Part shown: in pieces, positions 139-57,245 of the stretch
Position numbering within the stretch: position 1 is the first letter of the stretch
Layout: each line of letters begins with the position of its first letter
Source: Prevotella sp.
GTDB lineage: Bacteria > Bacteroidota > Bacteroidia > Bacteroidales > Bacteroidaceae
DNA: 64,000 bases
NCBI GenBank assembly: GCA_017410365.1
Contig: JAFQQY010000050.1
Coordinates: forward strand, 1-64,000
Direction of reading: 5' to 3'
Translations under genes and position numbers: made by a program
The notes under the pieces: model-generated
Database searches by the model: none
What the model was told of the DNA's origin: nothing
The model's input: the letters and a program-made list of their open reading frames with translations, nothing else

Positions 139-226
139 AATCGGCCCATTTACGGGTGCTAAGTGGCCCACTTACGACGGCAAAGTGGCGCATCGATATT
201 TTTAAGCGGTAAACAAGCGAAAAGTA
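139..226. repeat. 22-bp-period degenerate tandem array (copy A)
   Basis: Units begin at 139, 161, 183 and 205, exactly 22 bp apart. The first three share the pattern AA-nn-GGCCCA-n-TTACG, for example GGCCCATTTACG and GGCCCACTTACG; the fourth is weak. The array ends about 40 bp before the uvrD promoter. The same period and a related motif recur near 32.6, 32.9 and 56.2 kb. The period is not a multiple of three and no reading frame is involved. Confidence 0.6.
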
Positions 227-6594: not shown

Positions 6595-6782
6595 AACCCA
6601 AATCGGTCATTTAGATTTTAGTGCGTTTGTCTTGTTATTTTGAGAAGATTTTTTATGTGTTCTAAAGGAGTATAGCGGGCTATACGACTGAAGAGACATG
6701 AAAAATATGCCAAAAAGAATAGACAAAAGTGCAAAAAGTATTTCTTAATACCACATTTACGGTCTAATGAGCTATTTGGGTT
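6595..6782. mobile_element. MITE-like element, copy 1 (188 bp, terminal inverted repeats)
   Basis: The element starts AACCCAAATCGGTCATTTAG, and the reverse complement of its other end reads AACCCAAATAGCTCATTAGA. It therefore has imperfect terminal inverted repeats of about 20 bp. A central perfect palindrome GTATAGC-GG-GCTATAC lies near 6670-6685. It carries no reading frame of note. A nearly identical copy in the opposite orientation lies at 32148-32336, and a remnant of one end at 42797-42825. It sits exactly between two convergent terminators. Confidence 0.75.
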
Positions 6783-12075: not shown

Positions 12076-12445
12076 GAAAGCAGTGTTCCGGTCTGCTGCT
12101 GGCATCATTTTGAGATGCGAGAGGAAAGTCCGGGCAGCATAGGGTGCCTCTCTTCTGAAAGTAGAAGCTATTGGTGACAGTAGGGTATGGCAGAAGAAAA
12201 CAACCGCCACCATGTGGTAAGGGTGAGAAGGTGGTGTAAGAGACCACCAGCCGTTGGGTGATCAGCGGGCTGTGCCACCAGAGGGCTGCAAGTTCATGTA
12301 AACCGTCGTTTGAGGGTTGCCCGCCCGATTAACTCCGATGGAGGGTAGAACGCTTGAGCCGTGTGGCGACATACGGACTAGATAAATAGCAGGCACCATC
12401 TTTAAATAGATGGTACAGAACCCGGCTTATAGGAACAGTGCTTTC
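12076..12445 (+). ncRNA. rnpB: RNase P RNA (class A)
   Basis: The catalytic RNA that trims tRNA 5' leaders. The universal 5' core GAGAGGAAAGTCCGGGC is at about 12119-12135 and the 3' core ACAGAACCCGGCTTATAGG at about 12415-12433. The ends GAAAGCAGTGTTCC and GGAACAGTGCTTTC pair to form the closing helix with one mismatch. A T-run at 12446-12450 ends the gene. The length of about 370 nt is normal. A YihY-family gene starts 20 nt after the RNA. Confidence 0.95.
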
Positions 12446-27477: not shown

Positions 27478-27725
27478 ATTTTAAAGTAGTTAGAGGGAGT
27501 TAAAGAAAGATATGCAGCTTTCAGCTGCGAAGTTAGAGGACGAATGTTTCTTTTGTAAGGAGTTTGAGAAAGTTATTTTCAACCCTTCAACCCTTCAATT
27601 TTCTATCCAAGACTAATGTCTTCTATCTCCTTCTATCTTCTTCAATTTTTCTATCCAAGACTAATGTCCTCTATCTCCTTCTATCTTCTTCTACCTTCTT
27701 CTATCTTCTTCAATCCCCCCTCTCA
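27478..27725. repeat. Composite dispersed repeat between DUF4492 gene and cydA
   Basis: Contains the palindrome GCAGCT-TTC-AGCTGC (27514-27528) and two copies of the CCAAGACTAATGTC-pyrimidine unit (from about 27607 and 27655). A GC hairpin CCCCTCTC-ATTATG-GAGAGGGG (27717-27738) closes the block and overlaps the end of the DUF4492 gene. Frames through it translate to monotonous Leu/Ser/Phe peptides and are not genes. Confidence 0.75.
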
Positions 27726-32423: not shown

Positions 32424-32570
32424 AAAGTGCGGGGGCTGTGAGGGCTGTGAGGGCATTTTGCAAACTTTATTACATGAAAATTATCATTTTTCATCTCATC
32501 GCGTATTGCGCGTACGCGCGCGATAAGGGTTTTAAAAACACCCTCACAACCCTCACAGCCACCGCACTTT
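32424..32570. repeat. Large inverted repeat (30-bp arms, 87-bp loop)
   Basis: AAAGTGCGGGGGCTGTGAGG... (32424-32453) pairs with the reverse complement of 32541-32570 at 28 of 30 positions. The arms contain a tandem GGGCTGTGAGGGCTGTGAGG motif. The loop holds the perfect palindrome GCGCGTACGCGC. A frame that runs through the arms is not a credible gene. It could extrude as a cruciform or form a very stable RNA hairpin. Confidence 0.75.
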
Positions 32571-32646
32571 TAAAATCAAAACCGCACAATTTACAATTGA
32601 ATACCGCACCCCTTACAAGGCAAAACTGCACCACTTTTGAGATGAA
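32561..32646. repeat. 22-bp-period degenerate tandem array (copy B1)
   Basis: Units start with ACCGCAC or ACTGCAC at 32561, 32581, 32603 and 32625. The first is 20 bp and the others are exactly 22 bp. Shared pattern: ACCGCAC-nn-(C/T)TTAC-A. The first unit is also the tip of the right arm of the large inverted repeat. Confidence 0.55.
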
Positions 32647-32909
32647 AGTGGTGTGGTTGAAGGATTGAATAATTAAATAACAGAAATCCTTAAAATCCCA
32701 AAATCCCTAGAAAGAAGTATATCTACAAAATTATATTCCTAGATTTTTAAAAATCAATTTTCTCATACATCCTACATTTTTGCATATAAGACATTAAGCC
32801 ATAGAGCGTTAAGTGCAGTGTAGGAGGATTTCAATCCTACATTTTTTGCCCGTTTTTCGGTGCATTTTAGTAATTTTAACAAATTTAGGTTGTAAAAATT
32901 GGTATTTCT
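32647..32909. other. AT-rich spacer with a small hairpin, no gene
   Basis: Contains a partial copy of the ATCCTTAAAATCCCAAAATC element (about 32688-32712) and a duplicated ATCCTACATTTTT. The inverted repeat TGTAGGA...TCCTACA lies at 32819-32841. No reading frame in it looks like a protein. Confidence 0.5.
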
Positions 32910-33019
32910 AAAAGGGCGTTTTAGGTATCGTAAAAGGGCCATTTGAGTATCGTAATTGGGCCGTTTGGGTGTCAAAAGTGATGCATTTAGGAGTGCTAAC
33001 AGTACCGCTTTTGTATAAC
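32910..33019. repeat. 22-bp-period degenerate tandem array (copy B2)
   Basis: Five consecutive 22-bp units start at 32910, 32932, 32954, 32976 and 32998. The first three follow AAAAGGGC-nn-TTT-nnGTATCGT closely (AAAAGGGCGTTTTAGGTATC, AAAAGGGCCATTTGAGTATC); the last two drift. The array lies about 210 bp upstream of the rpoD -7 box. Confidence 0.65.
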
Positions 33020-34241: not shown

Positions 34242-36287
34242 GTGAACTATCGGAGTAACATATTAAGATTGGTGTTGCCAGTGATACTTCTATGTATTTC
34301 TGGCAATATTTTTGCTCAAAAACCTACATCAGAATCAGACGACTGGTTGCTGCAAAGGTTGTTTGAATATAAAACTCTGACCATATCACACAGTGATACC
34401 ACCACAAGGCAGATATACACGAAGCACACTCTGAAATCACTGAGGCGCAACCCTACCCTCTTTCTTGTTCCCACGATGTACAGCATAGCCAAAGGGCAAA
34501 GAGACTACATCAGAGAGTCTTTTGGCGTGGCTCAGATAGTTGGTGCTGATATCATTGGCTATCAACCCAAACTACTTTGCGGAACAATAAGGAAAAACAG
34601 GTTGGCCATGCCTATACTTGTGGACTACATCACCCCAGACCTTTATTCTGAGTTGCTCTTCGGAAGCAACGTGCTCTCTCCTTTCCATAAGGACAATAAG
34701 AGATACTACGAATATCAATGGTCGCCACACACAGATTCTACGGCCATGCTGATATTCAACTCAAGGTTGAACAACACACAACTTGTGGATGGATGGGCAG
34801 CTGTGGACAATAAGACTGGAAGGATAATAAGTTGCCAACTAAAGGGGGATTTTGACATGATTGACTTCAACCTGCATGTGGACATGGGCAGCGAACAAGA
34901 CAAACATGGAAGCCTAGTACCAGAGAGAAGCGACATCTGCTCTACATTCATGTTTTTGGGCAATAAGGTTGAGTATCAGTTGGTTGCACAATATGACAAT
35001 CATCGGCTAACTCTGCCTGACACACTAATTACAGAGCAAACACTAATGGATGCCTACAGGCCCATGGAGCTTAGCAGCATAGAGAAGCAGATATATAGGC
35101 AATACAATTGGGACAAGCAGATGAGCCAACCAGACACTACAAGAAGAGACACGCTTGTGGAAGAAGGCGTAGACGTGGGAAAGAAAGCTCTTGAACTGAT
35201 AGAAGACAATCTGCTAAGCAGCATAAAGGCCAACTCAGAACGTGCCTCAATAAGAGTATCACCACTGCTTGACCCCTTGAAGCTGAGCTATAGCAACAGA
35301 AGGGGATTGTCGTACAGAATGAAGATTGACACAAAATACATGTTCGATGCCAACAGATACATAACGCTGAAGCCACGTGTGGGCTACAACTTCAAGATAA
35401 ACAAGCTCTACTACTCTACTCCACTGAGATATACCTTGGACGAGAGGAAAAACAACTGGATAGAACTGCTTTTTGCCAATGGAAACAGAATAACACACTC
35501 GTCTGTGAGCAAGGCCATAGAAGAAAGCAACGATAGCACTGTAATGAGAAGTGACGATGATGACCAATTCAACGACCAGTATCTCAAGCTACATGCCAAT
35601 ACGGCCATAAGCAACAAGGTGGATGTGGCTCTGGGTATAACATACCACAAACGTAAGGCTGCAAACAAACACTTGCTTAAACAGCTAGGACTGGAAACAT
35701 ATTACAAGACCTTTGCACCTACGCTTACTCTAAGCTACAGGCCAAACATGAAGTGGCCCATGTTCTCGGTAAACTATGAACGCAGCATAAAGGGTGTGCT
35801 TGGGTCGAACATAGGATATGAGAGATGGGAGTTTGATTCTTCTTTCAAGAGAGACCTAGGTTCACTGCGCAAGTTGAACATAAGAACAGGCGGTGGATTC
35901 TACACAGACAAGAGCACCAACCACTTTGTTGACTTCGAGAACTTCCAAGAAGAGTATCTGCCTGAGGGATGGGATGACGAGTGGACAGGCAACTTCCAAT
36001 TGCTAAGCAGCAGTTGGTATAACCAGTCGAAGTACTATGCACGCATGAATGCCTCTTACGAATCTCCCCTCATGCTTGTATCAAGATTGCCTTTGGCTGG
36101 CAAATACATAGAAACAGAACGACTATACCTTGGAGTGCTAAGCATTGAACACACCCGTCCATACTTTGAACTGGGTTATGGTTTCACTTGTCGCTACTTC
36201 TCCGTAGGTGCCTTCACTGGTTTCCTGAATGGCAGTTTCCAAGAGTTTGGCTGTAAGTTTACTTTTGAGTTGTTTAGGAGGTGGTGA
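34242..36287 (+). CDS. DUF5686-family outer-membrane protein
   Basis: 681 residues from the GTG at 34242, with a signal peptide (LPVILLCISGNIFAQ). The C-terminal half is a predicted outer-membrane beta-barrel with DUF5686 signatures such as LPEGWDDEWTGNFQLLSSSW and HTRPYFELGYGFTCRYFSVG, ending ELFRRW. The N-terminal carboxypeptidase-like domain present in many family members is absent. Function is unknown. The start is uncertain: no ATG precedes the signal peptide, and GTG (34242 or 34272) or TTG (34269) are the options. The promoter position favours 34242 as a leaderless start. Confidence 0.8.
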   Translation: MNYRSNILRLVLPVILLCISGNIFAQKPTSESDDWLLQRLFEYKTLTISHSDTTTRQIYTKHTLKSLRRNPTLFLVPTMYSIAKGQRDYIRESFGVAQIVGADIIGYQPKLLCGTIRKNRLAMPILVDYITPDLYSELLFGSNVLSPFHKDNKRYYEYQWSPHTDSTAMLIFNSRLNNTQLVDGWAAVDNKTGRIISCQLKGDFDMIDFNLHVDMGSEQDKHGSLVPERSDICSTFMFLGNKVEYQLVAQYDNHRLTLPDTLITEQTLMDAYRPMELSSIEKQIYRQYNWDKQMSQPDTTRRDTLVEEGVDVGKKALELIEDNLLSSIKANSERASIRVSPLLDPLKLSYSNRRGLSYRMKIDTKYMFDANRYITLKPRVGYNFKINKLYYSTPLRYTLDERKNNWIELLFANGNRITHSSVSKAIEESNDSTVMRSDDDDQFNDQYLKLHANTAISNKVDVALGITYHKRKAANKHLLKQLGLETYYKTFAPTLTLSYRPNMKWPMFSVNYERSIKGVLGSNIGYERWEFDSSFKRDLGSLRKLNIRTGGGFYTDKSTNHFVDFENFQEEYLPEGWDDEWTGNFQLLSSSWYNQSKYYARMNASYESPLMLVSRLPLAGKYIETERLYLGVLSIEHTRPYFELGYGFTCRYFSVGAFTGFLNGSFQEFGCKFTFELFRRW

Positions 36288-36690
36288 TGGAGGATTGAAG
36301 GAGATAGAAGAAGGTAGAAGGAGATAGAGGATATTTGTCTTGGGTTGAAGAGTTGAAGGAGATAGAAGAAGATAGAAGAAGGTAGAAGGAGATAGAGGAC
36401 ATTAGTCTTGGGTTGAAGAGTTAAAGAAGGTAGAAGAAGGTAGATGAAAAATTGAAGGAGATAGAAGAAGGTAGATGAAGATAGAAGGAGATAGAGGACA
36501 TTAGTCTTGGATAGAAAATTGAAAAATTGAAAAATTGAAAAAATTGAAGTATTGAAAATATCTTTCTCTAACTCCTTAAAAAAAGAAACATTCGTCCTTT
36601 TTTTCGCATAGCTCAAGGAAACTCCTTCGCAGCTGAAAGCTGCATATCTTCCTTTAACTCCCTCTAACTCCTTTAAAAATATAATAACAA
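36288..36690. repeat. Homopurine composite repeat upstream of addA (inverted copy)
   Basis: About 260 nt of almost pure purine on the plus strand: repeated GAAGGAGATAGAAGAAGGTA. It includes three units carrying GAGGA(C/T)ATT(A/T)GTCTTGG, followed by ATTGAAAA repeats. It is followed by GCAGCT-GAA-AGCTGC (36629-36643) within the REP-like part. The block is the reverse complement of those near 25.8 and 27.6 kb. A minus-strand frame through it gives a repetitive Leu/Ser/Phe peptide and is rejected. No promoter box is obvious, although AAGCATTAAGAATATG precedes addA. Confidence 0.75.
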
Positions 36691-47258: not shown

Positions 47259-47354
47259 AAGTTTAACTTCAAAGAAGAGATCTCCTCAATGAAGTATCTA
47301 ATTGCAGATATTACTATGAAATTAAATAATCATATAAAATTTCATTGCAATTAG

Positions 47355-47387
47355 AAAAAAAAATTGATTGTCTCACGACAACCAATC
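47355..47387 (-). terminator. Terminator of the ileS-to-DUF3256 operon
   Basis: On the minus strand ATTGGTTGTC and GACAATCAAT form a 10-bp stem (one mismatch) around GTGA, followed by nine Ts. It lies about 105 nt after the DUF3256 stop. Confidence 0.75.
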
Positions 47388-47493
47388 TTTTTATTAACCT
47401 TAATAATCTAATACCATGAAAAACACATTGCAAAGGTATAAATAAATTTTTATTAATGCAACAATTCATTATTATTTCAACGGAAATTTAACT

Positions 47494-52473: not shown

Positions 52474-55400
52474 TTAAATTTTTTCTACTTTGATATTAGC
52501 CTTCAACTCATCAAGTTCTACTTCAACTCCGTCGTTGGCGGCTATCGTTATGTTATCTGCAAGTACCTGTGTCTTGATGTATTCAGCAAATCCCTCAACA
52601 GCCTTTTCTATGCTTTCAGCAGGTGATATGGTGACATTTACACGATCTGTGATTTCCAAGCCACCTTCCTTACGCATGTTCTGAATGCGGTTGATGAGTT
52701 CACGTGCCATACCCTCATTGCGAAGTTCATCTGTAAGTTCAACATCAAGAGCTACAGTAAGATTGCCTTCGTTGCTAACGAGCCATCCTGGAATATCTTC
52801 ACTGATAATCTCAACATCGGCAACTTCAACAAGAGCTTCCTGACCTTCTACATTAACTGTAATGCTTCCGTTTTGCTCAAGTGCAGCAATGTCTTCCTGA
52901 GAGAGTGAGTCCATCTGTGCAGCAACACCCTTCATAAGCTTGCCAAATTTCTTACCCATGGTACGGAAGTTACACTTAACCTTCTTGACAAGGATTCCAG
53001 AGCCTTCAACAAACTTTAACTCCTTAACGTTAACTTCGCTCATTATCAAATCCTTAACAGCATCGATGTGCTTCTTCTGCTCATCGTCTGTAGCAGGTAT
53101 CATAATCTCCTGCAGTGGCTGACGAACCTTGATGTTAACCTTACGGCGAAGAGCAAGAACCATTGATGTAATCTTCTGAGCCATACCCATTCTTACCTCA
53201 AGGTCTTTGTCTATGAGTGATTCATCGGCTACTGGGAACAACGAGAGATGTACTGAACATACATTATCTCTGCCTGTTGCCTTTATGAGGTCTGTATATA
53301 ACTGGTCGGCATAGAAAGGAGCAAATGGTGCAAGAAGCTTTGCTACTGTTTCAAGACAAGTATAGAGTGTCTGATAAGCAGACAACTTGTCTGTGCTCAT
53401 TTCCTTACCCCAGAAGCGTTTGCGGTTAAGACGCACATACCAGTTGCTAAGGTCATCATTTACAAATGACTCTATCAAACGACCAGCACGTGTTGGGTCA
53501 TAGCCCTCAAGTTCCTTGTCAACACCCTTTATAAGTGAGTGAAGTACTGACAATATCCAGCGGTCAACCTCTGGACGCTCATTAAACGGAACATCTGGCT
53601 GTGAATAATCAAATCCGTCAACATTAGCATAGAGGCTGAAGAAGCTATATGTATTATATAATGTACCGAAGAACTTACGGCGTACCTCATCAACACCTTC
53701 TGGGTCGAACTTGAGGTTATCCCATGGTTCTGAGTTGGTCATCATATAGAAACGTACAGGGTCTGCACCATACTTGCCAATCATATCAAACGGATTGACT
53801 ACATTACCCACATGCTTTGACATCTTGTTGCCTTTAGAGTCAAGCACAAGACCTGTAGAAATAACGTTCTTGAAAGCGATGCTGTCGAATACCATTGTAC
53901 CGATTGCATGCAATGTGAAGAACCATCCGCGTGTCTGGTCAACACCCTCATTGATGAAGTCAGCAGGAAAAGCCTTGCGGTCATCAATCATTTCACGATT
54001 CTCAAATGGATAGTGAATCTGAGCATATGGCATAGCACCAGAATCAAACCAAACGTCTATCAGGTCGGTTTCACGCTTCATCTGCTTGCCATTCTTTGAC
54101 ACAAGTACAATATTGTCAACGTAAGGACGATGAAGGTCTATCTTATCATAATTCTCTTTAGAATAGTCATCAGGAACAAAGCCGTTATCCTTCAGAGGAT
54201 TGCTTTCCATATAACCGGCCTCTACAGATTTTTCAATCTCGTTATAGAGTTCCTCTACACTGCCTATACAGATTTCATTATCATCTTCATCACGCCAGAT
54301 AGGAAGTGGTGTTCCCCAGAAGCGTGAACGAGAAAGGTTCCAGTCATTAAGATTATCAAGCCAGTTGCCAAAACGACCTGTACCTGTTGACTCTGGTTGC
54401 CAATTAATTGTCTTGTTCAATTCAGACATACGCTCCTTCTTAGCTGTAGAGCGAATGAACCAAGAATCAAGAGGATAATAGAGCACAGGCTTGTCTGTAC
54501 GCCAACAATGAGGATAGTTGTGCACATGCTTTTCTATCTTCAGAGCTGTTCCCTCTTGCTTCATCTCCATTGCAATTACAATATTCAGGTCTTCTGCCTT
54601 AGCAGCAGCCTTCTCATCATATTTGCCATCAACATTGAATTCAGGCTTGTAAGCATTCTTCACATAATCGCCAGCATGCTTAGAATATGCGTCAACATTT
54701 ACACATGCAGCTGTGAAATTGCAGTCAAGCTCATCGATAGTATAATACTTTCCTTCCAAGTCAACCATAGGACGAGTTTCACCCTTCTTGTTGATGAGGA
54801 AGAGGGCTGGAACATGAGCATCCTTAGCCACCTTAGCGTCATCGGCACCAAATGTAGGTGCTATATGAACGATACCTGTACCATCTTCGGTTGTAACGTA
54901 ATCACCAGGTATAACGCGGAAAGCCTGTTCTTCCATCTCAACAAACTTATCCTTGCCGTTCTCGCCATCAAACACCTTCTCGGCATTTTGTGCTGCATAT
55001 TGCTTAACAAAGTCTGCTGAATTGTCATCAAGTTTCTGGCATGGCTTAACCCATGGCATGAGTTGCTTGTACTTATAACCAACAAGCTGTTCACCTGTAT
55101 AGTTGGCAATTATGCGATATGGAATAACCTTATCGCCATGCTTATAGTCGTCCATTGACTTCTCTGCACCTTCAGCACCGAAATATGCAGCAAGTCTTGA
55201 TTCAGCCATTACAACAGTTATCTTCTCGTCGTTGTATGGGTTGTATGTCTGAACAGCCACATAACCAATCTTAGGACCAACACAAAGAGCTGTGTTAGAA
55301 GGCAATGTCCATGGAGTTGTTGTCCATGCAGCAAAATAAGCCTTACCCCACTCTGTCCATGATGCCTCAGGATTTGTTATCTCGAAAAGTGCTGTACATG

Positions 55401-56037
55401 TTGTGTCCTTAACATCACGATAGCAACCAGGTTGGTTCAACTCATGTGAACTAAGTCCTGTACCTGCACCTGGAGAATAAGGCTGAATGGTATATCCCTT
55501 ATAAAGAAGTCCCTTGTCATACAACTGACGGAGCAACCACCAAAGAGTCTCAATATACTTGTTGTCGTATGTTATATATGGGTTATCCAAATCTACGAAA
55601 TAACCCATCTGCTCTGTCAGATTGCGCCATTCAGCTGTGAATTTCATCACATTCTCACGGCACTTCTTATTGTAATCCTCTGTGGAAATATATCTCTCGC
55701 TTGAGTGATTGTCAATATCGGCCTTTGTGATTCCCAATTCTTTTTCAACTCCAAGTTCAACAGGAAGTCCATGGGTATCCCATCCTGCCTTGCGATGAAC
55801 CTGATATCCCTTCATTGTCTTGTAGCGATTGAAGGTATCTTTAATTGCACGAGCCAGTACATGGTGAATACCAGGGTGGCCATTGGCAGAAGGAGGTCCT
55901 TCAAAGAATACAAACTGAGGGCAACCCTCACGCACCTCTATTGACTTATGGAACACATCTTCGCGGTTCCACATTTCAAGTATTTCATTGTTAACCTGTG
56001 TAAGGTTTAATCCGTTGTGTTCGGCAAATTTAGCCAT
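52474..56037 (-). CDS. ileS: Isoleucyl-tRNA synthetase (long Bacteroidetes/eukaryote-like type)
   Basis: 1187 residues, longer than the E. coli enzyme. The class I HIGH site appears as PPSANGHPGIHHVLARAIKD (about 49-68), so the first His of HIGH is Gly. HRKAGWDTHGLPVELGVEKE follows. A large editing domain contains GTGIVHIAPTFGADD. KMSKS appears as NKMSKHVGN (about 735). The C-terminal anticodon-binding domain is long and lacks the zinc-finger Cys cluster of bacterial type 1 enzymes. First gene of the operon, with a -7 box 48 nt upstream. Confidence 0.95.
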   Translation of the reverse strand: MAKFAEHNGLNLTQVNNEILEMWNREDVFHKSIEVREGCPQFVFFEGPPSANGHPGIHHVLARAIKDTFNRYKTMKGYQVHRKAGWDTHGLPVELGVEKELGITKADIDNHSSERYISTEDYNKKCRENVMKFTAEWRNLTEQMGYFVDLDNPYITYDNKYIETLWWLLRQLYDKGLLYKGYTIQPYSPGAGTGLSSHELNQPGCYRDVKDTTCTALFEITNPEASWTEWGKAYFAAWTTTPWTLPSNTALCVGPKIGYVAVQTYNPYNDEKITVVMAESRLAAYFGAEGAEKSMDDYKHGDKVIPYRIIANYTGEQLVGYKYKQLMPWVKPCQKLDDNSADFVKQYAAQNAEKVFDGENGKDKFVEMEEQAFRVIPGDYVTTEDGTGIVHIAPTFGADDAKVAKDAHVPALFLINKKGETRPMVDLEGKYYTIDELDCNFTAACVNVDAYSKHAGDYVKNAYKPEFNVDGKYDEKAAAKAEDLNIVIAMEMKQEGTALKIEKHVHNYPHCWRTDKPVLYYPLDSWFIRSTAKKERMSELNKTINWQPESTGTGRFGNWLDNLNDWNLSRSRFWGTPLPIWRDEDDNEICIGSVEELYNEIEKSVEAGYMESNPLKDNGFVPDDYSKENYDKIDLHRPYVDNIVLVSKNGKQMKRETDLIDVWFDSGAMPYAQIHYPFENREMIDDRKAFPADFINEGVDQTRGWFFTLHAIGTMVFDSIAFKNVISTGLVLDSKGNKMSKHVGNVVNPFDMIGKYGADPVRFYMMTNSEPWDNLKFDPEGVDEVRRKFFGTLYNTYSFFSLYANVDGFDYSQPDVPFNERPEVDRWILSVLHSLIKGVDKELEGYDPTRAGRLIESFVNDDLSNWYVRLNRKRFWGKEMSTDKLSAYQTLYTCLETVAKLLAPFAPFYADQLYTDLIKATGRDNVCSVHLSLFPVADESLIDKDLEVRMGMAQKITSMVLALRRKVNIKVRQPLQEIMIPATDDEQKKHIDAVKDLIMSEVNVKELKFVEGSGILVKKVKCNFRTMGKKFGKLMKGVAAQMDSLSQEDIAALEQNGSITVNVEGQEALVEVADVEIISEDIPGWLVSNEGNLTVALDVELTDELRNEGMARELINRIQNMRKEGGLEITDRVNVTISPAESIEKAVEGFAEYIKTQVLADNITIAANDGVEVELDELKANIKVEKI

Positions 56038-56085
56038 AGTTTTATTTTTGTTATATATTTTTTATACCTTATTTTTAAGAATGTG

Positions 56086-56093
56086 CAAAAATA
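56086..56093 (-). promoter_or_regulatory. -7 box (TATTTTTG) for the ileS operon
   Basis: Minus-strand TATTTTTG; expected start near 56079, leader about 42 nt. No T-box-like leader fits in this space. Confidence 0.5.
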
Positions 56094-56192
56094 CAAATAA
56101 TCTATGAGACTACCAAATTTATAAATTCTTTTTAACCGCCTATATCAGTTTTGCGTTTTGCCTTAGGCATACAAAACATATCGGTTTTGACT

Positions 56193-56346
56193 GAAAAAAG
56201 CATCACTTTCGTAAGAAAACACACGCTCTAATTTCAGTAAGTGCGCCACTTACTAGCAGTCAGAAGGCCAAAAACTGACAGTCAGAAGGCATCTTACTCG
56301 CAGTCAGAAGGCGTTTTACTGATTGTAAAAGGTCGTATTAACAGCA
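56193..56346. repeat. 22-bp-period degenerate tandem array (copy C)
   Basis: Seven consecutive units start at 56193, 56215, 56237, 56259, 56281, 56303 and 56325, all exactly 22 bp. Three adjacent ones begin GTCAGAAGGC and most end in CA or A; TTAC is shared in the middle. The unit at 56237 contains a perfect palindrome GTAAGTG-CGC-CACTTAC. Two weaker units may extend it left to about 56149. It separates the divergent ileS and nudC promoters. Confidence 0.7.
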
Positions 56347-56420
56347 CAAAACGCCATAAGAAAATTAAGAAAAGTTGAATATATTCAGATGATATTATGC
56401 CTTAATTAAGAATAAAAGAA

Positions 56421-56428
56421 TAACTTTG
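56421..56428 (+). promoter_or_regulatory. -7 box (TAACTTTG) for nudC
   Basis: TAACTTTG ends 40 nt before the nudC ATG; it lies 75 bp after the 22-bp array. Confidence 0.6.
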
Positions 56429-56468
56429 CACAGAGATTAGAAAAATAACAAAAGATAAAGCAAAAGCT

Positions 56469-57245
56469 ATGAAATCGTATTATTTTGTTTTCAACAACGG
56501 AGAACTGCTGCTCGAGCGATGCAACGACAAGGGATACAAAATACCTTGCCAAGCAATGACACCAACAGAAACAAAACCATGGACAAACATCTTAGAGGTT
56601 GGAGAAATAAATGGCATTAGCGTGAAATGCTACAAGACAGAGAATACGACATACGACACAGAGAGATATGAAACCTGTCCGCTAAGACAAAGCTACTACA
56701 AACTAGAGCAAGGCCTCTACCTTATGGCTGGCAAATGTGCCGAACTGATATATTGGGACGTCAATACCAAATACTGTGGAGTATGCGGAGGACTGATGAA
56801 ACACCACACAAACATAAGCAAGCGATGCGAAGAATGCGGTAAAGAGGTGTGGCCACAATTAGCAACTGCTGTTATCGTACTGATAAGAAAAGACGACAAG
56901 ATATTGCTTGTAAGAGCACTTAATTTCAAAAGAAACTTCTACGGATTAGTGGCTGGCTTTGTTGAAACTGGTGAGACGCTTGAAGAAGCAGTAATGCGTG
57001 AAGCAAAAGAAGAGACTGGATTGACTATCAACAACATAAGATACTTTGGCTCACAACCGTGGCCCTACCCTTGCGGACTTATGATTGGCTTTACTGCCGA
57101 CTATGTTAGCGGAGAAATAAAGATACAGGAAGAGGAGTTGGCTAAAGCAGAATGGTTTAGCAAAGACAACCTGCCTCCAATCCCAGAAAAACTATCAATT
57201 GCCAGAATGCTTATTGACAGTTGGCTAAAGGAAAAACAAAAGTAG
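56469..57245 (+). CDS. nudC: NAD(H) pyrophosphatase / NAD-RNA decapping Nudix hydrolase
   Basis: 258 residues. An N-terminal region is followed by a four-Cys zinc ribbon (CGVCGG...RCEECGKEVWPQ, about 100-127). The Nudix box is GFVETGETLEEAVMREAKEE plus TGL (about 162-184). SQPWPYP at about 198 is the NudC-specific motif for dinucleotide recognition. It hydrolyses NADH to NMNH and AMP, and in E. coli the family member also removes NAD caps from RNA. It is a single gene convergent with the following lipoprotein gene. Confidence 0.93.
   Translation: MKSYYFVFNNGELLLERCNDKGYKIPCQAMTPTETKPWTNILEVGEINGISVKCYKTENTTYDTERYETCPLRQSYYKLEQGLYLMAGKCAELIYWDVNTKYCGVCGGLMKHHTNISKRCEECGKEVWPQLATAVIVLIRKDDKILLVRALNFKRNFYGLVAGFVETGETLEEAVMREAKEETGLTINNIRYFGSQPWPYPCGLMIGFTADYVSGEIKIQEEELAKAEWFSKDNLPPIPEKLSIARMLIDSWLKEKQK

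Follow-up and report, generated by a model that had tools for sequence, protein, structure and literature searches.

A 22-bp phased array between ileS and nudC in Prevotella, a probable decayed copy of a dispersed intergenic repeat

The gap between ileS and nudC in Prevotella sp. (assembly GCA_017410365.1) holds short sequence units that recur every 22 bp, and the question raised by this locus is whether they serve the two genes that flank them or belong to something more widely spread. The window analysed here is the whole stretch of 64,000 nucleotides at positions 1 to 64,000 of contig JAFQQY010000050.1. Across 56193-56346 sequence identity reaches 0.58 at lag 22 and 0.51 at lag 44, with every remaining lag from 1 to 59 at or below 0.38. 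The best 66-base stretch of the gap, at 56232, has 46 of 66 matches at lag 22, where 2000 dinucleotide shuffles gave a maximum of 37, and its best 110-base stretch has 67 matches against a shuffled maximum of 54. This is the strongest lag-22 stretch of the window, as the original prediction held, the runner-up at 32868 having 62 matches in 110.

That prediction also counted seven exact 22-bp units, and here the sequence disagrees: the array extends over about 56232-56346 as four clear units and a weak fifth (Table 1). The third to sixth units of the original count match one another at 11-16 of 22 positions, while its first two (56193-56236) match the others at 5-11 and so fall outside the array on this evidence. 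Three units do begin with GTCAGAAGGC, at 56259, 56281 and 56303, and one unit does contain a palindrome, both as described. The picture of conserved patches joined by drifting linkers proved half right, in that the periodicity is real but the patches are half-sites in alternating orientation. Contiguous, divergent units distinguish the array from CRISPR, with its identical repeats and unique spacers, and neither is it a microsatellite, two points on which the earlier description stands. The array is best read as one worn example of a non-coding repeat that is dispersed in the genome.

Table 1. Positions of the array units, the flanking genes and the other 22-bp repeats of the window.
Feature	Position	Strand	Remark
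Short 22-bp repeat	143-189	+	2.1 copies, with CTAAGTGGCCCACTTAC
Third lag-22 stretch	32563-32650	+	not dyadic in the test (z -0.1)
Second 22-bp array	32868-32990	+	different sequence family (AAAAGGGCGTTTTA type; TAAAA-GGGCG-TTTTA kind)
ileS, left neighbour	52474-56037	-	TIGR00392, E 7e-296
First two units of the original count	56193-56234	+	outside the array on match evidence; 5-11/22 matches to the remaining units
Unit 1	56235-56255	+	CAGTAAGTGCGCCACTTACTA; contains the palindrome GTAAGTG-CGC-CACTTAC (56237-56253, three-base centre)
Unit 2	56257-56277	+	CAGTCAGAAGGCCAAAAACTG
Unit 3	56279-56299	+	CAGTCAGAAGGCATCTTACTC
Unit 4	56301-56321	+	CAGTCAGAAGGCGTTTTACTG
Weak fifth unit	56323-56346	+	GTAAAAGGTCGTATTAACAGCA at 56325-56346; as seventh unit of the original count, 13/22 matches to its units 3 and 5
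nudC (NAD(+) diphosphatase), right neighbour	56469-57245	+	NF001299, E 7e-71

The two genes diverge around the array, which the original prediction placed between their promoters. Promoter-like sites in 56000-56500 occur at chance level (2 against 1.8 expected), terminator-like sites were not found in the same interval, and GTAAGTNNGCACTTAC has 2 matches in the window against 5.1 expected. Among 29 relatives aligned on ileS, one (L236) carries an array in the available upstream flank of the gene, of another sequence family, and the other 28 have no array of at least 36/66 in that flank. A weak lag-22 stretch (36/66) lies on the opposite side of ileS in one relative (L229), and G350, a genome outside the 29, has an array upstream of ileS too. 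A tie to the two promoters is not upheld; the array belongs to a dispersed repeat and is, on this evidence, no control element devoted to either gene.

The dispersal is evident within the source genome itself. A BLAST search with 56150-56346 found 20 further places at E <= 5.5e-4, neighbouring rows merged, and these, with the window copy and seven places found by a pattern with a fixed 22-bp step, are the 28 loci analysed. They have a common unit plan, CAGT-N13-ACTG-N repeated head to tail, so that ACTGNCAGT recurs every 22 bp. In its exact form ACTGNCAGT-N13-ACTGNCAGT occurs 30 times in this genome and its reversed control not at all; the counts are 49 against 4 when one mismatch is allowed and 70 against 22 when two are. 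Sites less than 44 bp apart are spaced by 22 bp in 52 of 53 cases, by 23 in one and by 21 in none, a count in which 7 of the 28 loci came from the fixed-step pattern and the other 21 did not. Left ends read CAGT in 25 of the loci and TAGT in 3, and right ends ACTG in 22, partly by construction, as the ends were sought with 3/4 matches. Copies are alike over about 90-100 bp, as far as the array ends, and their flanks differ; L062 and L064, for example, agree at 97% over 96 bp and agreement ceases at the array ends. In some pairs the likeness reaches as much as 206 bp, and flanking DNA can hence move along with the array. The number of units is 3 to 5 among the 24 copies measured, and in 16 of these 24, all of them arrays with three or more units in a row, the outermost arms pair at 5 or more of 6 positions. 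The window copy, whose outer ends do not match each other, is not among the 16. The 55 ORFs that flank the 28 loci have no between-locus similarity at E 1e-5, and no neighbour gene recurs; 14 loci lie between tandem genes, 5 between convergent and 6 between divergent ones, with 3 unassigned.

The original prediction expected autocorrelation at 22 bp beyond this array and a family of phased arrays, and both were found, here as well as in congeneric genomes. At a threshold of 40/66, the 758 kb scanned from the source genome (G000) hold 22 clusters at lag 22, where lag 21 has 8, lag 23 has 1 and block shuffles have none. Lag 22 is not the commonest period at every threshold, lag 8 exceeding it at 40/66 (29 against 22) and trailing it at 44/66 (12 against 14). 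Besides the CAGT/ACTG type, the lag-22 families of this genome include GGTATAC-GCCGT-GTATACC, GTATTT-GGCGT-AAATAC and TAAAA-GGGCG-TTTTA, which are unrelated in sequence. Repeats of other kinds are also present: degenerate tandem repeats of TCTTCTATCT / GATAGAAGGA occupy 27593-27715 and 36285-36495 of the window and are found beside array L069, and runs of 7-bp-based repeats (CTCGTCC/CTTGTCC), a separate repeat type, occur in L183 of genome G053.

Four relatives (G028, G027, G018 and G040) keep the same 22-bp step with partly different sequences. These four, with 3 of 20 further stretches, were selected for pattern matches; the remaining 17 stretches, and G350 and G388, which were picked for completeness and kinship only, were chosen independently of such matches. 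At lags 22, 21 and 23 the clusters per 200 kb number 16, 1 and 0 in G350 and 22, 4 and 0 in G388. A survey of 1.91 Mb from 27 congeneric genomes found 59 of 105 lag-22 arrays to be dyad-symmetric (z > 2), with at least one such array in 13 of the 27. At the remaining lags between 15 and 32, of which 16 of 17 had any arrays, the figure was 19 of 196. These counts take each copy of one family separately, and the z values come from 30-60 random shuffles and vary slightly between runs. Dyadic arrays also occur at lag 18 (5/19), lag 20 (4/13) and lag 27 (3/11), and in G350 only 7 of 19 lag-22 arrays passed the dyad test. A GGC core is found in 103 of 257 windows at dyad centres and, as background, in 926 of 5658 windows elsewhere in these arrays, which are not independent of one another.

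Beyond the genus the signal fades. Other families of the order gave 2 lag-22 arrays in 298 kb from 20 genomes, neither of them dyadic, and 196 kb of non-Bacteroidales loci gave none. The exact CAGT/ACTG form occurs in 27 of 398 genus genomes, its reversed control in 3. With up to one mismatch it was found in 15 of 100 genomes (reversed control 5), all belonging to the same genus, which was represented by 59 relatives and the source genome, and in none of the 40 genomes from other families. Lag 22 is special in this genus, and sequence families differ while the step stays at 22. This constancy across unrelated sequences points to a putative protein that measures two turns of DNA.

We consider that the array in the ileS-nudC gap is probably, by a modest preponderance of the evidence, the degenerate remnant of a dispersed non-coding element whose action is on the DNA itself: a non-autonomous, REP/MITE-like repeat composed of phased half-sites for a putative dimeric DNA-binding protein. 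The element would consist of 22-bp units in a row, in most cases 3 to 5 of them. Every unit has a pair of opposed half-sites (CAGT... and ...ACTG), an arrangement that places a half-site about every 11 bp, approximately one helical turn, on one face of the DNA. A transposase-like or nucleoid protein may recognise these half-sites as a dimer and tolerate only the 22-bp step, and the arrays may have spread as non-autonomous REP/MITE-like elements, sometimes inside a true MITE. The observations behind this proposal are the near-identical arrays at unrelated intergenic sites, the fixed step, the inverted outer ends of 16 of the 24 copies measured, the lack of preference for gene direction, and half-sites that differ between species.

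The placement of the arrays agrees with that of REP-like elements, since the arrays are dispersed, palindromic and intergenic: besides the 28 loci, none of 44 dyadic arrays (z > 1.5) lies inside an ORF of at least 150 aa, ORFs that cover 85-87% of the DNA, and none of the 43 lag-22 arrays of G350 and G388 lies inside an ORF of at least 120 aa. Both neighbours are known for 36 of the 44 dyadic arrays, 22 being tandem, 7 convergent and 7 divergent, and the G350/G388 set has 26 tandem, 12 convergent and 5 divergent contexts. Intergenic length in the source genome is 64% tandem, 23% convergent and 13% divergent. The gene context of the arrays thus follows gap length and is indifferent to gene direction.

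Signs of movement come from G350, which has five copies of a repeat of about 600 bp with an array inside. Its best-preserved copy (C2:52154-52769, or L281 12154-12769) is 616 bp long, has perfect 16-bp terminal inverted repeats (TIRs) and an 8-bp duplication, TAAATAAT, and sits in a gap devoid of ORFs of 120 aa. The ends of this carrier may resemble those of the ISL3 family. In G388 the orthologous place holds a single TAAATAAT and no array (at most 28/66 at lag 22), and is hence an empty site. A second copy, at C2:34569-35351, has AATATTAT on either side, and when the five are paired by near-matching ends the 8-bp duplication is exact in two, 7/8 in one and absent in two. Judged by the inverted repeats, the duplication and the empty site, one array family or more is carried by a MITE, a situation like that of BrickBuilt in P. 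gingivalis (PMC4596501). Carriage of this kind cannot account for everything, since in the other arrays of G350 the shared sequence is limited to the array and its immediate surroundings, some 130-155 bp. Inspection by eye of the ends of the 28 loci of the source genome revealed neither a target duplication nor an empty site. A repeated sequence resembling an insertion-sequence end (TTTAGATTTTAGTGCGTTTGTCTTG...) occurs at 6610 and 32190 of the window and also beside array L068.

Two further links were examined and dropped. PF01797 (Y1_Tnp/RAYT) has no match in the 89%-complete source genome, although it matches in 65 of 100 genomes; by plain count, 11 of 15 pattern-bearing genomes have it, as do 23 of 45 other genomes of the genus. 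At 20 Y1_Tnp loci of relatives there is no array at the gene, weak lag-22 stretches (36/66) occurring elsewhere in two of them, and RAYT as the mover is set aside on both grounds. A link to plasmids or viruses was likewise dropped, two weak matches (E 0.9) having come from one query and none from another. The exact pattern occurs in 16 viral contigs, of which only L266 and L271 have a lag-22 stretch of at least 40/66. In L271 a short G018-type array lies at about 6221 (43/66). L266, at 73% GC, has GGGACTGCCAGTCC-type units 22 bp apart at about 1692 (42/66), either a chance likeness or a case of this geometry in a host that is far removed.

Some arrays appear to stay where they are. One array is kept without gaps at an orthologous place in G350 and G388, identical at 104 of 140 positions (74%), against 110 of 163 (67%) and 108 of 177 (61%) in its flanks, and two species that are about 97% identical over most of 60 kb have their only lag-22 stretch there at the same place. 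Such retention fits conserved function as well as slow mobility, and it counts in favour of a second explanation, that the arrays are phased operators or anchoring sites of a nucleoid-associated or chromosome-organising host protein, kept by selection and not self-mobile. The strict 22-bp step would suit such a protein, as would intergenic placement without preference for gene direction. On the other hand, one sequence-specific protein would not need several unrelated half-site families in a single genome, and near-identical copies at unrelated sites, together with the 28 of 29 ileS upstream flanks without an array, suggest turnover. We regard this explanation as possible but rather unlikely, at perhaps one chance in a handful.

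A third explanation is that the arrays are transcribed and act as hairpin RNA, in the form of a UTR structure, an attenuator or a small RNA. Folding is indeed better than in shuffled sequences for the two strands of the window array (z -3.5 and -2.1), for L062 (-4.4) and for the three-unit L075 (-8.1), as is expected of any dyadic array, and the inverted outer ends of two-thirds of the longer arrays would also accord with an RNA. The remaining evidence goes the other way. Among 26 arrays between tandem neighbours in G350 and G388 the motif lies on the same strand as the genes in 8 and on the opposite strand in 8, with 10 unassigned; mismatches on the sense strand show no wobble bias, G-T (29) not exceeding A-C (45); and 56040-56480 has no Rfam match at E <= 1. 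With neither strand bias nor wobble bias, nothing speaks for the 22-nt small RNAs that the original prediction proposed to look for. Two RNA genes lie elsewhere in the window, a match to the paralogous Bacteroidetes sRNA FopS (RF04319) at 47354-47426 on the minus strand and a class A RNase P RNA at 12080-12445.

When one unit is taken from each of 26 genomes, inner pairs 5 to 8 covary (21, 20, 23 and 13 of 26), levels equalled by 0, 7, 0 and 26 of 5000 shuffles respectively, and pairs 9 and 10 do not covary. Within the source genome, by contrast, 42 units gave a pairing of 0.419 against 0.443 when shuffled, with no within-unit covariation and interchangeable halves, and a hairpin of the single unit is accordingly unsupported there. 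Pairing lies below the shuffled level in G028 (8 units, 0.475 against 0.63), slightly above it in G027 (8 units, 0.65 against 0.59) and clearly above it in 13 units of other genomes (0.569 against 0.307). A hairpin between mirror units fares no better: although the outer arms pair in most of the longer copies, covariation of mirror units is not array-specific (0.507, against 0.573 with partners from other arrays). A hairpin that is needed in every copy fails to explain covariation between genomes and its absence within one, a pattern to be expected if a dimeric protein reads the half-sites and their consensus changes gradually from one species to the next. An RNA element is for these reasons an improbable explanation.

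A further question is whether the arrays are a known repeat under another name. Plasmid iterons and other phased operator arrays are likewise direct repeats of about 22 bp in phase with the helix, but iterons are confined to one replication origin, and the present arrays are scattered through the genome and dyadic. The arrays resemble REP/BIME sequences and the REPIN/RAYT system in being short, intergenic, palindromic, dispersed, often clustered and species-specific in sequence (PMC3733652). They differ in their constant head-to-tail step of 22 bp, in having no GTAG/CGTC end tag, as that paper defines it, at any of the 28 loci of the source genome, and in that no RAYT was found in this genome and no array at the 20 Y1_Tnp loci of relatives. 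Among MITEs, to which the G350 carrier conforms in its ends, its duplication and its empty site, BrickBuilt of P. gingivalis has the plan of this carrier, an intergenic tandem repeat within a MITE; its unit is reported as 23 nt, its ends as IS5-like and its hosts as P. gingivalis and P. gulae (PMC4596501). The arrays described here have dyad units of 22 bp, and their several sequence families are spread over a genus. PINSR of P. intermedia and P. nigrescens is likewise an intergenic, high-copy repeat of Prevotella, with 177-184 copies in P. intermedia; it measures 188 bp and is reported without terminal inverted repeats and from four species of one clade (PMC4755523), a comparison made by description only. 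That the arrays are PINSR in another species, or a relative of BrickBuilt under another name, seems doubtful to us, about as doubtful as the RNA reading. The literature search, partial in its coverage, found no account of 22-bp dyad arrays, and we file them as a variant of dispersed palindromic, MITE-like repeats, in which the constant step across unrelated sequences is the unexplained part.

Plain tandem duplication through replication slippage, with no protein recognition, is disfavoured to the point of being very improbable: unit number does vary among copies and short-period repeats such as those at lag 8 are common here too, but the periods adjacent to 22 are nearly empty in G350 and G388, and lag-22 arrays are dyad-symmetric more often than those at other lags (59/105 against 19/196).

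The reading as a REP/MITE-like element with phased half-sites admits a broader and more tentative extension, to which we would give slightly less credence than to host-protein operators. The genus may possess a diversified recognition system, in which paralogous, fast-evolving DNA-binding proteins would each have their own half-sites and a single geometry, with dimers every two helical turns and scattered 22-bp dyad arrays as their sites, and in which evolution would keep the step and not the sequence. It is difficult to see how several families of unrelated sequence could agree on one exact period across a genus unless some molecular ruler were common to them. If this is true, the arrays would be ready baits for the putative DNA-binding protein or transposase, and would account for part of the intergenic DNA in common gut, rumen and oral bacteria. 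Should they be only selfish repeats, they would still constitute a useful class for masking and for tracking genome change.
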